Below the pieces are notes generated by a model. It saw only the letters and a program-made list of their open reading frames with translations. It did not search any database and was not told where the DNA came from. A stretch of DNA of 20,587 bases, taken from positions 1 through 20,587 of the IMG/VR virus record IMGVR_UViG_3300011116_000449. One strand, written 5' to 3'. The translations under genes and the position numbers were made by a program. Positions 2,991 through 11,850 of the stretch are shown here, piece by piece (position 1 is the first letter of the stretch; every line of letters begins with the position of its first letter). This stretch comes from a virus.

Positions 2991-3362
2991 ATGCGTTTAA
3001 ACCTCACCCATAGAGCATTGCTCAAGCGCCTGTCAGGTGGCCCAAGGTCAATGATTGACCTCACCCATGCGGCAACCGACAACAATTCAGTGTCGTTTCA
3101 CTATCAAAGATACCTACCTGAATTAGAGAGGTTTGGGTATGTCATCAACCACGATCAAAAGTGGCATCTGACTGAGTATGGGCGCATGGAGATGAATCGG
3201 GCTATCAGCGGTGCAGCTATGCGGATTGAGAATGGGTCAACCACAGAACCTTATGATGGAAAAGAATTGAGAAGGAATGTGTTTCGCAGGGGTTGTTACG
3301 ATTTCTTACAACTTCCTAGCAGGTTTGGAAATAGTTTTGTACCCAGGAAAACACCTACTTGA
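2991..3362 (+). CDS. Winged-helix transcriptional regulator
   Basis: This 123-residue protein has AAGGA seven bases upstream. Residues 1-65 look like a winged helix: LTHRALLKRLSGGPRSMIDL, a recognition helix around FHYQRYLPELERFGYV, and a wing ending HLTEYGRMEMNRAI. The C-terminal part has EPYDGKELRRN followed by RRGCYDFLQLPSRFGN, a tail I associate with small phage regulators of Burkholderiales. Its position beside a divergent gap with a repeated palindrome suggests it controls one or both flanking promoters. The last codons overlap a reversed copy of the same motif (AGGAAAACACCT, 3345-3356) and the -35 box of the next promoter. Repressor versus activator cannot be told. Confidence 0.7.
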   Translation: MRLNLTHRALLKRLSGGPRSMIDLTHAATDNNSVSFHYQRYLPELERFGYVINHDQKWHLTEYGRMEMNRAISGAAMRIENGSTTEPYDGKELRRNVFRRGCYDFLQLPSRFGNSFVPRKTPT

Positions 3363-3388
3363 CAGCGGGTTTTTTTATGGTGTACATT
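3359..3388 (+). promoter_or_regulatory. Sigma-70-like promoter of the structured RNA region
   Basis: A perfect TTGACA (3359-3364) overlaps the stop codon of the winged-helix gene. Eighteen bases later lies TACATT (3383-3388), four of six matches to TATAAT. Transcription would begin near 3395, just before the first large stem at 3404. The reversed palindrome copy at 3345-3356 sits directly upstream of the -35 box and could be an operator. Confidence 0.5.
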
Positions 3389-3394
3389 TCGTTC

Positions 3395-3697
3395 GTCAAA
3401 AGCGCCGACACGCATAGACGAAACATGAGGCCATTTACTCATGCGTTCATCCCGAAAGGGGCAGTGTGTCGGCACTGGAACGCAGTAGTAAGTGGCCTTT
3501 TGCGTTCTTGATCGTACTCCACACGATAGCAGAGCGTTTGCATGGACGGCTTGGAAGAAAACACCGCACCCTACACACCCAAGGGCAAAAGGCGAACAGC
3601 GTTGGTTGAGCGACTGTTGAAGCACATGGTACATCGGTGGAACAAGGCCATGTGTATAAGCGAATCAACCCGTCAAGCGCACTTGGGGCTTTTTTAG
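3395..3697 (+). ncRNA. Candidate structured non-coding RNA, about 300 nt
   Basis: This gap carries no convincing protein gene but many perfect stems. A ten-pair stem (3404-3413 with 3464-3473, one G-U) encloses CATGAG/CTCATG (3424-3429 with 3438-3443) and CCC-GAAA-GGG (3451-3460), forming a three-way junction with a GNRA tetraloop. Further stems follow: GAACGCA/TGCGTTC (3478-3484 with 3501-3507), ATCGT/ACGAT (3511-3515 with 3523-3527), AACAG/CTGTT (3595-3599 with 3614-3618) and CACATGG/CCATGTG (3623-3629 with 3648-3654). A promoter lies before it and a stem plus six T after it. I do not recognise a known family; it lacks the hammerhead core and shows no tmRNA or RNase P signature. The borders are inferred. 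Confidence 0.45.
3669..3695 (+). terminator. Probable intrinsic terminator after the structured RNA
   Basis: CCC (3669-3671), a two-base bulge, CAAG-CGCA-CTTG (3674-3685) and GGG (3686-3688) form a bulged seven-pair hairpin followed, after one C, by six T (3690-3695). The stem is imperfect, so some read-through into the following operon is likely. The gene at 3725 has no obvious promoter of its own. Confidence 0.45.
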
Positions 3698-3724
3698 TTT
3701 TTCAATGTTAATAGGAGTCAATGA

Positions 3725-3958
3725 ATGAACACTGATAAGTCTGGAGAGGGAAGGATAGTCGGTCTATCCACCCTTGGAGAAGCTATGTCTGAAGAAGAAT
3801 TCGAGGACAAAATGAACACCTACGAACTCGACCAACAGTATGCTGAGTACATCATGGAGCACAGGGTTGTCGGTAATGGAGAAATGCTTATCCGAATCAT
3901 GGAGAGAGGCGATCTCTACGAAGACTTCAAAGAACACATCATGTTTGGCAACAAATGA
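3725..3958 (+). CDS. Small acidic protein sharing a domain with the protein at 5458
   Basis: This 77-residue protein has AGGAG seven bases upstream. Residues 21-72 (beginning MSEEEFEDKMNTYELDQQYA and ending GDLYEDFKEHI) align with residues 140-193 of the protein at 5458-6063 (MTEEQFEVAMRTFKLEREYA ... GDYLQGFKEKM), with a two-residue gap. The shared unit is acidic and helical, so it is a small paralogous domain present twice in one operon. Its stop overlaps the start of the DpdA-like gene (ATGA), implying coupled translation. The function of the domain is unknown. Confidence 0.7.
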   Translation: MNTDKSGEGRIVGLSTLGEAMSEEEFEDKMNTYELDQQYAEYIMEHRVVGNGEMLIRIMERGDLYEDFKEHIMFGNK

Positions 3959-4635
3959 TTCATTATCATGGAACCCCAATATCACCCATCAAAGCCATAG
4001 AAACAATGGGTGGTAAGCATTTCTGTGTGTCCTATGCCAGACCTGATGACTTACAGAGATGTTTGCGTTTGGGACAGTCTTTGATGCTGGACAACGGGGC
4101 TTTTAGTGCAAAAACCCGTGGCTTGACCTTTGACATCAATGGCTTCTACGAATGGGTTGAGCCTTTGCTGGTACATCCACACTGGGCTGTAGTGCCTGAT
4201 GTAATTGATGGGACTGTTGAACAACAGAAAGAAATGGTCAAAACTTGGCCCTTTCGAAAAGAGTTTGGAATCCCTGTCTGGCACTTGGGTTTGCCAATTT
4301 CATATCTTCTTGAACTCTGCGACACCTGGGGACGGGTCTGCTTTGGATCGGCTGGTGAATTCTGGCAAATCGGCACTACTAAGTGGTGCGGCAAGATGGA
4401 CGAAGCCTTTAATGCCATGACAAACACTTTTGGGCGGCAATTGCCTTGGGTGCATGGTTTGAGGATGCTAGGACTGTCTTCTGGCCCTTGGCCCTTGGCT
4501 AGTGCAGATTCCACTAATGTGGCGCTACACCATGCTGAAAAACAGGTTTGTGCGGGTTGCATGGCAAAACGCATAGATTCCACTAATCCCCCAGGCCTCT
4601 GGGAACAAAAACCATTACAGGAGATTTTGATTTGA
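3955..4635 (+). CDS. DpdA-like 7-deazaguanine DNA transglycosylase (predicted)
   Basis: This 226-residue protein begins MIHYHGTPISP and carries the motif series I associate with short phage DpdA-like proteins of the tRNA-guanine transglycosylase superfamily: LDNGAFS (residues 45-51), VVPDVIDG (79-86), PVWHLG (107-112), FGSAGEFWQIGTTKWCGKM (130-148), HGLRML (167-172) and LASADSTN (181-188). Asp46, Asp82, Asp85 and Asp185 are candidate active-site residues. A late Cys199-x2-Cys202 pair may bind metal. Known DpdA enzymes exchange guanine in DNA for a 7-deazaguanine base such as preQ0, which protects DNA from restriction. The next gene, overlapping by four bases, looks like a queuosine-precursor transporter, which supports the call. 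No preQ0 synthesis gene is in the window. The substrate base is not known. Confidence 0.62.
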   Translation: MIHYHGTPISPIKAIETMGGKHFCVSYARPDDLQRCLRLGQSLMLDNGAFSAKTRGLTFDINGFYEWVEPLLVHPHWAVVPDVIDGTVEQQKEMVKTWPFRKEFGIPVWHLGLPISYLLELCDTWGRVCFGSAGEFWQIGTTKWCGKMDEAFNAMTNTFGRQLPWVHGLRMLGLSSGPWPLASADSTNVALHHAEKQVCAGCMAKRIDSTNPPGLWEQKPLQEILI

Positions 4636-5117
4636 TTTATCCAGCAATTTACATCGCCGCCCTAGTCATTGCCAATCTATTGGTGGCATGGCTTGGCCCT
4701 TGGTTTAGCCCCATAAATGCCTTTGTTTTGATTGGTTTGGACTTGTCATTGAGAGACAAGCTCCATGAGCAATGGAAAAACGACAAATTAGTGGTGAAAA
4801 TGGGTGGCTTAATAGCGACAGCAAGCGTGGTTTCTTACTTGTGGAATCCAGCGGCAGGGCCGATTGCATTGGCATCGTTTCTGGCATTTGCCCTTGCTAT
4901 GACTGCTGACACAATTGCTTATCACTTCTTGCGTGATAAACCTTGGATGATTCGATCAAATGGGTCAAATGTTGCTGGAGCTGCCGTTGATTCATTAGTA
5001 TTTCCCACAATTGCTTTTGGCGGGTTGTTGTTGCACATTGTTGCTTTGCAATTCGTTGCCAAGATTGTCGGCGGGTTGATTTGGAGCAAAATTCTAAGCA
5101 GGAGACAAGATGTTTGA
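4632..5117 (+). CDS. VUT/YhhQ-family queuosine-precursor transporter (predicted)
   Basis: This 161-residue membrane protein has about five hydrophobic segments (roughly residues 3-21, 27-37, 58-72, 74-92 and 117-150). Family features are GLDLSLRDKL after the second segment and the C-terminal SNGSNVAGAAVDSLVFPTIAFGG, which parallels the 'VDS-F--IAFG' signature of the YhhQ/VUT transporters. These import preQ0, preQ1 or related 7-deazaguanine precursors across the inner membrane. It starts at TTG, with the sequence TTGA shared with the previous stop and AGGAG about nine bases upstream, so it is coupled to the DpdA-like gene. The pairing suggests that the phage modifies its DNA with an imported precursor. 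The protein is shorter than E. coli YhhQ (about 220 residues). Confidence 0.68.
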   Translation: MIYPAIYIAALVIANLLVAWLGPWFSPINAFVLIGLDLSLRDKLHEQWKNDKLVVKMGGLIATASVVSYLWNPAAGPIALASFLAFALAMTADTIAYHFLRDKPWMIRSNGSNVAGAAVDSLVFPTIAFGGLLLHIVALQFVAKIVGGLIWSKILSRRQDV

Positions 5118-5457
5118 TGACTTTTGGAAAGCATGGCCTAGCAGTCCCAGAAAAGGGGCTAAATCGGCCTGTAAAAAGGTTTGGGACAAAACCTACTGCG
5201 ATACCCAGGCTGACCAGATCATCAAGCACTTAGCCTGGATGAAGACAACAGAGCAGTGGCTCAAGGCAAATGGGGCGTTTATACCTGCTCCCTTGGTGTA
5301 TTTGAACCAACAACGCTGGGATGGCGCAGAAGTGCCTGAAATGGCCTTTAAACCAGCCGTAGACCCTGCCCTAGCCAAGATCAAGGCAGACATAGCCAAG
5401 GCAGCACCTATGCCCGATCACATCAAAGAGCGTTTGGCTCAATTAAGGCGGCAATGA
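5110..5457 (+). CDS. Replication-protein-like C-terminal domain protein
   Basis: This 115-residue protein has the pattern FWKAWPSSPRKGAKSACKKVW at its N-terminus, followed by WLKANGAFIPAPLVYLNQQRWDG at about residues 50-72. The same FW--P---GK--A---W ... FIP-P--YLN--RW arrangement closes many phage and plasmid replication initiation proteins, where it is thought to recruit the helicase. Here it stands alone without the usual N-terminal winged helix, so it may be a split or reduced loader. AGGAG lies five bases before the ATG, and the gene overlaps the transporter gene by eight bases. Confidence 0.6.
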   Translation: MFDDFWKAWPSSPRKGAKSACKKVWDKTYCDTQADQIIKHLAWMKTTEQWLKANGAFIPAPLVYLNQQRWDGAEVPEMAFKPAVDPALAKIKADIAKAAPMPDHIKERLAQLRRQ

Positions 5458-6063
5458 ATGACTGATGCTGAACTGATAGAACTTGCTGCACAAGCGGCGG
5501 CAATTAACGCAGTTAAAGACCCTAATGGTGTCTGGCGTGACTATACGGGTATGCCACCAGCATTCAACATTTTGGATGCAAAGCCTTGGAATCCGCTTAC
5601 AAATGATGGCGATGCACTGCGATTAGCGGTGAAGTTGAACATGAAAATAAACATCACTTATGGTTTTGTTGAAGTGCAGTTTGAAGAAGATGTGCATGGT
5701 TCTTTCGTGCGGTCAGGCATTGTGGATTGGTCAAGGAAACAGGCTGGGAAACCAGTAAAACCGCCTGCCCAGCGAGAAAATATAGCTTCGGCTTTCGTGA
5801 GTGCAGGCATTGACAAGAATGAAGCCACTCGTCTAGCAATCGTTCGAGCAGCCGCTGAAATTGGTAAGGTTCCCATGACTGAAGAACAATTTGAGGTAGC
5901 AATGAGAACATTCAAACTTGAGAGAGAGTACGCTGACTACATCCTAAAGCGTCACAACAAAGAGATTGAACAGGGCATGGGTCTTTGGAAATTGATGGAC
6001 AAAGGTGATTATTTACAAGGGTTCAAAGAAAAGATGACAGGAATTAAAAATGACCAAAAATGA
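5458..6063 (+). CDS. Two-part phage protein: DUF2591-like front, small helical domain behind
   Basis: This 201-residue protein starts immediately after the preceding stop (TGAATG). Residues 1-135 resemble the short phage proteins with PWNPLTNDGDALRLAVKLNM (43-62) and the closing ATRLAIVRAAAEIG, loosely like DUF2591/NinX-type proteins. Residues 140-193 are a second copy of the domain that makes up most of the small protein at 3725-3958. The front type normally ends soon after the AAAEIG helix, so this looks like a fusion. No catalytic residues are evident. Confidence 0.65.
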   Translation: MTDAELIELAAQAAAINAVKDPNGVWRDYTGMPPAFNILDAKPWNPLTNDGDALRLAVKLNMKINITYGFVEVQFEEDVHGSFVRSGIVDWSRKQAGKPVKPPAQRENIASAFVSAGIDKNEATRLAIVRAAAEIGKVPMTEEQFEVAMRTFKLEREYADYILKRHNKEIEQGMGLWKLMDKGDYLQGFKEKMTGIKNDQK

Positions 6064-10092: not shown

Positions 10093-10671
10093 TTAAACCC
10101 TTTGCATCTCGCCATGGTCAGGGCAGTGAGGTGCGCCCATCTCATTCAGCCACTTGCCAGCAACCCGAACTGTATAACCACAGTCACGGCAGACGCATTT
10201 CAACAGGCGCGTGGTCTGTTTCTTTTGAGCGTTTGAAGGGATAAGGTCAGCGTGAGGGTAAGCGCCAAGGCGAGCCAGCACGGGTTCAGCCCAGGCCAAG
10301 AATTCAGGGCCAGCCGTGGTGGCTGTCAGCTTGCCTTCTAAGCCGATGGCACGAGCCGTGCGCCCGAACTTCTTGCCGTGCCCGTCACCAGGGTGAACCG
10401 CGTGGATCAACTCATGGGCGAGAATGTCCAAGACCCGCGAACTGTCTGAGATGGTGGGCGAGATGAAAATCTCAGCGTGGCTGTCAGCGCTCGCCCGTGA
10501 TGACCAGCATTCTCCAATGCGCCGATTCTTGGCGCTGAGGGCTGACTTTGAAGGGAAACCGCAAGATGACCTGATGCGCTCAGGGATGGCCTCCCCATGC
10601 TGTTTAAATAGTTTCCTGAGTTCTTCGGTGGCCTTGGAGAGCCATTGCTCCCTGGTGATGTTGCTTGTCAT
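10093..10671 (-). CDS. SprT-like zinc metalloprotease
   Basis: This 192-residue protein is the first gene of the leftward operon. The catalytic motif HELIHAVHPGDGHGKKF (about residues 87-103) contains HExxH plus a following His, as in SprT/Spartan proteases. The C-terminus has a zinc ribbon: CVCRDCGYTVRVAGKW, then PHCPDHGEM. SprT-family proteases cut proteins cross-linked to DNA; small phage members are common but their targets are unknown. The ATG is preceded by CGAAAGGCGTTCAAA, the operon's shared leader. Upstream, TGAGAG/CTCTCA (10699-10704 with 10715-10720) would form a hairpin in the mRNA leader. Confidence 0.8.
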   Translation of the reverse strand: MTSNITREQWLSKATEELRKLFKQHGEAIPERIRSSCGFPSKSALSAKNRRIGECWSSRASADSHAEIFISPTISDSSRVLDILAHELIHAVHPGDGHGKKFGRTARAIGLEGKLTATTAGPEFLAWAEPVLARLGAYPHADLIPSNAQKKQTTRLLKCVCRDCGYTVRVAGKWLNEMGAPHCPDHGEMQRV

Positions 10672-10958
10672 TTTGAACGCCTTTCGATGGTTGATGACTG
10701 AGAGTTTTTCGACGCTCTCACATATATAGCATAATAGAATCGTGCCAGTTTTTATACATCGTTGATTTTAAACAAGAAAATCAGCAACATGAAAACCCTT
10801 ATAGTAATAACCCCTATATAATATCTCACAACATGAAATGTAACTCTAAAATATTCCACATGATGAAACGATTCGGATTAGGGTTTACCCGTAAAGTGTC
10901 ATTGAAAAGGTGCTTAGACGACATTCATTACCCGTCCGACCGGTCGGTTAATTAACTC

Positions 10959-10985
10959 AGGGTTTTCCCTCATAGGGTTTACCCT
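10959..10985. promoter_or_regulatory. Tandem AGGGTTT(T/A)CCCT palindromes
   Basis: AGGGTTTTCCCT (10959-10970) and AGGGTTTACCCT (10974-10985) stand 15 bases apart, start to start. They are the two most symmetrical copies of a motif also found at 698-712, 2062-2075, 2926-2940, 3345-3356, 8109-8120, 10880-10890 and 11393-11404. A double dyad in a promoter region is typical of an operator; the protein that would bind is unknown. Confidence 0.5.
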
Positions 10986-11396
10986 GTGTTGCAGTGGCGC
11001 AACAAACATGGGGGGGAGGGGGTGTGTGTGGCGTAAGAGATTTTGTGGTGCCCCCTCCGCACACGAGAAGTCAAATCAAGGTTTGTTATAGCAATGATTA
11101 GCTTTTGTTGGGAAGGGAGTAGGTGCTACAGACGGGTGGTGGTAGGGTATAGACGAGTTCAGGCACCCGTGAGGGTTAGTCTTCTTTTCAGAAGTGAACC
11201 TCTTGTTTATCTAAGCTAACCAGTATCTTGTTTGTCAGACAAGTGGCTCAGACTACGTTTCCTGTTCACCTTGCCATGATTCATCCCGAATGATGGGGGG
11301 CTACTTAAGAGTCGCCTGACTCGCTACGATTATCCCAATTGGTCGGTTCCACCGCATGGAGGGCTGGGTGATGGCCCCGTGAAGAATGTACTAGGG

Positions 11397-11425
11397 TTTA
11401 CCCCACTTGTCAAACAATGTATAGT
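11397..11425 (+). promoter_or_regulatory. Candidate promoter for the structural operon
   Basis: TTTACC (11397-11402, four of six to TTGACA) lies 17 bases before TATAGT (11420-11425, five of six to TATAAT). The -35 box is part of an AGGGTTTACCCC motif, so a protein bound there would block the promoter. The first structural gene starts about 25 bases downstream. Confidence 0.45.
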
Positions 11426-11454
11426 CTGCCCAAACTTCCATTAGTGGGTAAAGT

Positions 11455-11850
11455 ATGAATGTGATTGATGCCTTGCCAAACAACCTAAAGAAAAAAGGTC
11501 GCCCTAAGGGTGCTGTGAACAAGAAGTTCACTATGGCTACCTATGCTGATAGACCTGCGGCTCTCCTGCCAAAGACTGAAGTTCAGCGCATCAAAGAACT
11601 CAAAGACCTCCTGATAAACAGTGCTGGTTCCAATGTTGTCCACAAAGCAATTCAGATTGCAATGGATGACGATCACCCTGCACAGGCGGCTATGCTCAAA
11701 CTCTGTATGGATCGGATGCTTCCCGTCAGTCTGTTTGAGAAAGAAGGCAAACAGCGTTCTGCTGTAAACATCACTATCTCCGGCATTGGCGGAGTTACGA
11801 TTGGCGAAAATACTGTAGATGCTGAAGATATAGAACCAAAAAATGTCTGA
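11455..11850 (+). CDS. terS: Putative terminase small subunit
   Basis: This 131-residue protein lies directly before the large terminase gene and overlaps it by eight bases. It has a basic AT-hook-like start (LKKKGRPKGAVNKKF, residues 11-25), a helical centre (VQRIKELKDLLI, then AIQIAMDDDHPAQAAMLKLC) and a beta-rich tail. Small terminase subunits bind the packaging site in the phage DNA and load the large subunit. The call rests mainly on position and basic N-terminus, since these proteins diverge strongly. The ribosome-binding site is weak. Confidence 0.6.
   Translation: MNVIDALPNNLKKKGRPKGAVNKKFTMATYADRPAALLPKTEVQRIKELKDLLINSAGSNVVHKAIQIAMDDDHPAQAAMLKLCMDRMLPVSLFEKEGKQRSAVNITISGIGGVTIGENTVDAEDIEPKNV

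Follow-up and report, generated by a model that had tools for sequence, protein, structure and literature searches.

In phage lambda, nutR/tR1 is situated between the Cro gene and the replication genes, and the PR' unit (PR', the 6S leader and tR') consists of its own promoter, a leader of ~100-200 nt and a terminator placed ahead of an operon, termination being relieved by protein Q; the PR' leader is not known to have a conserved pseudoknot. The put RNAs of phage HK022 allow RNA polymerase to read through terminators via its beta' zinc-binding domain, the P4 and P1 immunity RNAs (cI, C4) are structured leader RNAs of operons for replication or for an anti-repressor, and the pRNA of phi29 forms an RNA-only assembly by intermolecular loop pairing. 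The Betaproteobacteria-1 RNA (RF02932) was reportedly defined in a paper of 2017. The put RNAs are ~70 nt in length, fold into two stem-loops and act without phage proteins, putL being found directly at its promoter and putR ~270 nt downstream of the PR start (PMC9378689). The GOLLD and ROOL RNAs measure 600-800+ nt, are often found near tRNA islands and form cages (PMC12286853).

The locus described here is part of a stretch of viral DNA of 20,587 nt, hereafter the window (positions 1 to 20,587 of IMG/VR virus record IMGVR_UViG_3300011116_000449). An earlier note on the window had proposed that the + strand stretch 3359-3697 encodes one structured RNA of ~340 nt with its own promoter and terminator. 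The promoter and the structured, non-coding character of the locus were borne out; however, judged from sequence comparison, this single stretch is two adjacent folded RNAs, here RNA1 and RNA2, and is accompanied by a hairpin at the start of the next gene, motif 3 (Table 1).

Table 1. Coordinates of the RNA cassette, its neighbours and the late-operon RNA in the window
Feature	Position	Strand	Description
123-aa ORF	2991-3362		Upstream neighbour of the stretch 3359-3697
RNA1 promoter	3359-3388	+	-35 TTGACA 3359-3364, -10 TACATT 3383-3388; 18-nt spacer
RNA1	about 3389-3502	+	Pseudoknotted, ~100-115 nt, ends in terminator-type stem; model match, covariation
RNA1 hairpin P1	3392-3422	+	3392-3397 / 3417-3422; loop is the 5' side of the pseudoknot
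RNA1 pseudoknot	3404-3473	+	3404-3413 x 3464-3473; stem of the earlier note; compensating changes
RNA1 terminator-type stem	3429-3501	+	3429-3448 / 3478-3497, then TTTT; covariation
RNA2	3506-3688 (or about 3513-3688)	+	Hairpins P2-P5, short P6, pseudoknots PK1 and PK2; 58-sequence alignment A1, mutual information, pair counts
RNA2 PK1	3519-3520 x 3553-3554 and flanks		P1 loop x strand after P2
RNA2 helix P4	3596-3617	+	3596-3601 / 3611-3617; 100% paired, 5/6 pairs double-changed; loop in PK2
RNA2 PK2	3604-3609 x 3665-3670		6 bp; P4 loop x 3665-3670
RNA2 helix P5	3623-3654	+	3623-3630 / 3647-3654; 98% paired, 7/8 pairs double-changed
Motif 3	3743-3787	+	Hairpin GGATAG/CTATCC (3743-3779) in conserved frame TGGAGAGGG..CCACCCTTGGAGAA; ATG 3785
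Next gene	3785-3958	+	57 aa from ATG 3785, 77 aa from 3725
DpdA-like gene	3955-4635		phrog_887
Vut_1 transporter gene	4632-5117
Gene 5110-5457	5110-5457		Related to replication initiation families
Late-operon RNA	about 11190-11400	+	In gap 10671-11455 ahead of late (terminase) genes

Structure and conservation of RNA1, RNA2 and motif 3

The first relatives comprised 80 viral loci retrieved by means of their DpdA-like protein and one GenBank phage, MW202484. When these were aligned, the 5' part of the stretch was variable and always ended in a strong stem with a T-run, and the 3' part (RNA2) was 75-90% conserved with single-base gaps that break any reading frame. A protein-coding locus was rejected on the basis of these gaps and of stop codons, which occur in each of the six frames in 38-57 of 58 relatives; it is the stems, and not a reading frame, that the relatives keep, in agreement with the earlier view that no convincing protein is encoded here. 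In MW202484 (L082:2898-3257), an annotated 'hypothetical protein' covers RNA1 and RNA2 and is probably an annotation artefact rather than a gene.

RNA1 was compared across 52 sequences with a mean column identity of 57%, the 5' part being aligned separately, and a cmsearch with model R2, from the building of which the window sequence was left out, matched the window at 3388-3502 (47.8 bits, E 1.7e-8). The relatives start with GTTG..CAAC and end with GTAAG.GGCTTTTTT; the TTTT following the stem is invariant (52/52), GGCTTTTTT is present in nearly all and TTTTTT in most. With its GC-rich stem and a T-run directly after it, the 3' end has the form of an intrinsic terminator, and 15 of the 20 pairs of the stem show changes on both sides. 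In the window the T-run is just TTTTGCG, which is under the threshold of the terminator scanner, and the stop after RNA1 may for that reason be leakier there. The earlier note had placed the terminator at the 3' end of the whole stretch, as a stem followed by six T; the T6 is in the sequence (3691-3696), as is the CCC-GAAA-GGG hairpin at 3451-3460, but the final T-run is found in just 56 of 78 relatives, and it is the inner stem (3429-3497) that is conserved and of terminator type.

At the other end of RNA1, the TTGACA and the -10 box are both present as previously reported. A promoter scan found two promoter-like sites where 2.5 would be expected by chance; among the relatives, the -10 box lies 5-6 nt ahead of the RNA1 5' end in 42/47, with a mean match to TATAAT of 5.1 of 6 positions (4.0 when shuffled), and the -35 is likewise above chance. 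The structured 5' end is therefore also the likely transcription start, and RNA1 has the promoter placement expected of a promoter-driven small RNA. All of the RNA1 types, of which there are at least three, consist of a -10 box, then a structured RNA, then a terminator with a T-run, and roughly one fifth of the non-redundant loci have type II or III in place of type I.

The helix equivalent to P1 is 95.4% paired in relatives, and the P1 loop forms 7-9 bp with the strand immediately internal to the terminator stem in 51/52 of them. There are 32 distinct loops in the 52 sequences, with the partner strand changing in step: when partners are swapped between phages a match is obtained in about 8%, as opposed to 51/52 for a phage's own, and own pairings of 6-11 bp fall mostly to 3-5 bp on swapping across subtypes. 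In the window's own subtype, this pseudoknot is the 10-bp stem that had been singled out for covariance analysis, and it is missing from the minimum free energy (MFE) fold because it is a pseudoknot; in L002, L003, L095 and L096, compensating changes have altered both of its sides together. Loops and partner strands that co-vary in so many combinations would also be consistent with an RNA-only complex in which copies of RNA1 and RNA2 join with their own kind or with one another and the RNA1 loop pairs intermolecularly, and the phage RNAs GOLLD and ROOL do form homo-oligomers (PMC12286853). However, the same pairing is possible inside one molecule, RNA1 is small and most loci have no link to packaging genes, all of which make such a complex unlikely.

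The fold predicted for RNA2 is five helices plus two pseudoknots. Helices P2-P5 and PK2 were recovered by an unbiased mutual-information scan of alignment A1 (58 sequences, <96% identity), in which 99.0% of the cells of 30 pairs are paired and 25 pairs have changed on both sides. Double-changed cells number 388, compared to 124 on shuffling, and the covariation score of 0.627 compares with 0.192 for shuffled alignments and <=0.10 with slid partners. This score exceeds that of 500/500 shuffles, a result which relatedness alone can give in some alignments; the count of double-changed pairs does so as well, which relatedness alone rarely gives. The loops of P2 and P3 are TGCATG and ACACCC, respectively, and many unpaired bases around the helices are invariant or highly conserved. 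A further candidate pseudoknot, CACCG x CGGTG (3562-3566 x 3635-3639), hardly varies between relatives, which puts it beyond covariation testing. The window holds one copy of RNA2, which has neither its own promoter nor the room for one.

Pairing and covariation among relatives far exceed chance. Two observations would be in keeping with a mere intrinsic terminator next to a non-functional gap or decayed gene: a terminator scan of the window gives chance-level matches only, and 3359-3697 folds better than shuffled sequence by just a modest margin (z -2.95, with 1/100 shuffles equally good). However, both RNA1 and RNA2 covary to a degree that greatly exceeds the shuffled and the slid controls, and they are conserved across divergent phages, which renders this explanation extremely improbable.

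Motif 3 follows RNA2 and a variable spacer, lying 148-201 nt 3' of the RNA2 pattern and, in most loci, nowhere else. Its consensus is TGGAG-A-GGG..GGATAG..CTATCC-ACCCTTGGAGAAC-TATG, and the hairpin is kept although length changes shift the reading frame between loci. A start codon with its ribosome-binding site comes after the block in 73/78 loci, though the next gene varies; this start opens a longer gene in 33 of the 73 and, in the other 40, a very short frame (e.g., MSKGK*, MPERN*) overlapping the following gene's ribosome-binding site. In the window, the start of that gene is probably at 3785, not 3725. The short protein 3725-3958 is similar to the C-terminal portion of the 201-aa product of gene 5458-6063.

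A single 340-nt RNA was rejected because RNA1 and RNA2 assort: the RNA1 types swap, RNA1 is found without RNA2, and in one locus (L161) an insert separates the two. This insert of about 190 nt contains a tRNA T-arm-like GGTTCGAATCC, and ARAGORN reported no tRNA in it.

Occurrence, neighbouring genes and related RNAs

RNA2 was found in more than 100 IMG/VR contigs, which are freshwater phage fragments, by two pattern scans in which some contigs were retrieved more than once. MW202484 was the sole match among 50,697 phage records, and plasmids gave no match to the cassette. A prophage scan of a genome contig collection gave no match to the RNA2 pattern; the RNA1 pattern was found in a Comamonadaceae MAG and a betaproteobacterial MAG, on phage-like contigs in both cases, with one additional chance match. 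One of 299 genomes in the family of the Comamonadaceae MAG carries the elements, again on a phage-like contig. RNA1 and RNA2 are essentially confined to phages, the hosts of which, going by the two MAG assignments, are probably Betaproteobacteria.

The earlier impression that the sequence resembles no known RNA family was upheld. None of the Rfam 15 covariance models matched the whole window above its gathering threshold, and at E<=10 over 3300-3730 the best match was the Glutamine riboswitch, at 12.6 bits against a gathering threshold of 35 (E 8.7), attributable to chance. A literature search, the scope of which did not extend to the original Betaproteobacteria-1 paper, found no description of these RNAs. 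As far as these sources go, both the tandem modular arrangement and the RNA families appear to be undescribed; an orphan structured phage RNA as such is of a known kind.

The order promoter, RNA1, terminator stem, RNA2, motif 3, gene is fixed in the non-redundant RNA2 loci. Upstream of the cassette there is often a small Cro-like helix-turn-helix protein; the winged-helix regulator which had been assigned to this position in the window found no confirmation in Pfam or PHROGs. A relative of the protein encoded at 5110-5457 frequently follows downstream, and methyltransferases, DpdA-like proteins and proteins of no recognised family also occur. The neighbours of RNA1 include terminase, RusA, primase, methyltransferase, scaffold and capsid genes.

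The earlier note had also placed the locus next to the modification operon of the window. A link to this operon would suit a riboswitch-like sensor, in which RNA2 and motif 3 bind a ligand (e.g., a deazaguanine precursor, with DpdA or transporter genes under control) and the RNA1 stem serves as an upstream attenuator; the highly conserved unpaired bases around the RNA2 helices and the presence of DpdA-like and Vut_1 transporter genes in the window operon are in keeping with it. However, the cassette precedes unrelated genes, the following gene varying freely between replication, methyltransferase, DpdA and unknown functions, and when the RNA2 model was run against 71 other DpdA-like loci there was one confident match, on a contig ending inside RNA2. 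The tie to DpdA was rejected on these grounds and, with no riboswitch of Rfam matching, a ligand sensor is very unlikely.

In a scan for RNA1 only, about 30 of 99 among the matches listed carry the RNA2 family, which includes a longer subfamily of the same architecture (41-81 bits), and the others carry unrelated classes. In one locus (L256:3442-3558, - strand), the RNA directly after RNA1 is Betaproteobacteria-1 (83.1 bits), the only such match among the loci scanned, which places that orphan family in a phage setting. Large RNA-like classes were noted in the slot next to RNA1 in loci L248-L353, among them C (CACGAGCAAGC), D (GGTCGAATC), F (TCTATCGGGTT) and G (GATAAATAAAGCAG), and class C contains covarying pairs. 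Classes D and G share with the RNA2 family a 5' module, CCGTACTCC..CG or CCGTCAGGGCG. The classes other than RNA2 gave no match in cultured phages, two short and weak matches of L272 being judged chance. Six loci (L249, L255, L295, L301, L339, L351) have an extra module between RNA1 and the next RNA, GACTAGG..GGGTTAGCGCC..CACTGCTT.ATGTGAGC..CCTAGTC, which looks like a further structured element. A contig with a type III RNA1 and an RNA2 also carries an int-alpA RNA (RF02996; L168:3122-3188, + strand).

The window has a second covarying RNA, the late-operon RNA, so that RNAs of this sort would stand in front of several operons in these phages. Its long-range helices covary across 20 sequences, with pairs that include 11335-11337 x 11357-11359, 11214-11216 x 11323-11325 and 11199 x 11346; the same small-terminase-like gene comes next in at least seven relatives, and Rfam gave no match to this RNA. 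In other phages its sequence occurs after RNA1 on the opposite strand. Class E reads on the opposite strand, its sequence being that of the late-operon RNA in reverse complement, and was therefore rejected as a partner of RNA1.

Possible roles of the cassette

From the comparison of relatives, the promoter of RNA1, its terminator-type stem, the order of the RNAs and the joining of RNA2 and motif 3 to the next ribosome-binding site can be regarded as established. Its frequent location between a Cro-like gene and replication genes, and the second RNA ahead of the late genes, suggest that the locus is a cassette of two RNAs, each with its own fold, which serves a phage operon as leader and acts in cis; we favour this reading tentatively, at somewhat short of an even chance. 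The fixed order, the exchangeable RNA1 types, an RNA2 without a promoter or a constant 3' T-run and the attachment of motif 3 to the start of a varying gene all argue for it. Transcription would start at RNA1 or enter from the upstream gene, and RNA2 would be made only beyond the RNA1 stem. Most polymerases would stop after RNA1, in the manner of the lambda PR'/tR' leader, and those reading through would make RNA2, which would then act on the elongating polymerase or the mRNA, either by controlling read-through as HK022 put does or by protection and ribosome loading, so that the operon would be turned on as a whole. The RNA1 pseudoknot is compatible with the terminator stem and is not an alternative to it, and there is accordingly no evident classical switch.

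There is the serious rival possibility, appreciable in its own right, that the cassette encodes trans-acting RNAs in portable form, with RNA1 and a processed RNA2 acting elsewhere (for example, by binding a host protein, polymerase or ribosome, or by blocking a defence system) and with its place before a gene being incidental. RNA1 is a self-contained unit of promoter, RNA and terminator which is found at many genomic places and is followed by different large RNAs in the same slot, and RNA2 has many invariant unpaired bases. What makes this rival serious is, firstly, that in four loci (L258, L268, L272, L276) the cassette is found between a scaffold-like gene and the major capsid gene, with a new promoter behind it, so that the capsid gene has no need of the cassette as its leader, and secondly, that the window operon lacks obvious terminators: on its + strand, from 3.7 to 7.5 kb, no strong intrinsic terminator was found that would need antitermination. 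On the other hand, RNA2 has no promoter, its terminator is not constant, motif 3 is joined to the next ribosome-binding site and the order does not vary, all of which speak against a trans-acting cassette. In the same four loci, the new promoter and a further conserved leader come after motif 3 and before the major capsid gene; this leader has GGACAACCGCAAGGCC... in three of them and a different sequence in L268, and is possibly another structured RNA.

A broader form of the cis-acting leader, which we regard as possible but rather doubtful, is that freshwater betaproteobacterial phages possess modular, exchangeable, pseudoknotted leader RNAs of many classes as an RNA-only counterpart of N/Q-type antitermination. 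RNA1 types I-III, the RNA2 family, the further RNA-like classes and the late-operon RNA would then form one set that drives the transcription programme by RNA alone.

The RNA families described here, with near-complete covariation support, are missing from Rfam 15 and add to those known, and the slot they have in common with Betaproteobacteria-1 gives orphan phage RNAs a common genomic context and a testable role. If control in cis is true, phages would have a diverse RNA-only means of running their expression programme; if action in trans is true, they would have a portable RNA tool targeted at the host. Reporter assays could be applied directly to the conserved modules, which are sufficiently short.

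Comparison with known phage RNAs

An antisense immunity pair, as in P4 and C4, was considered and rejected: the longest match between RNA1 and RNA2 averages 7.8 nt, compared to 7.5 nt after shuffling, with no conserved complementarity, and the C4 model of Rfam gave no match. GOLLD and ROOL resemble the present RNAs in being large, pseudoknotted orphan phage RNAs; however, they differ in size and their Rfam models have no match in the window. Betaproteobacteria-1 occupies the same slot after RNA1, whereas the RNA2 of the window has no match to it at any reported threshold. The put RNAs of HK022 are, by description, also operon-leader RNAs of a phage near early promoters, but RNA2, at ~180 nt, contains pseudoknots and RNA1, at ~100-115 nt, ends in a terminator-type stem, so that neither fits the put description of ~70 nt and two stem-loops. 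The lambda PR' unit has a layout like that of the cassette and differs in having no equivalent of RNA2. By analogy, the position of the cassette between a Cro-like gene and replication genes would correspond to that of lambda nutR/tR1 and HK022 putR.
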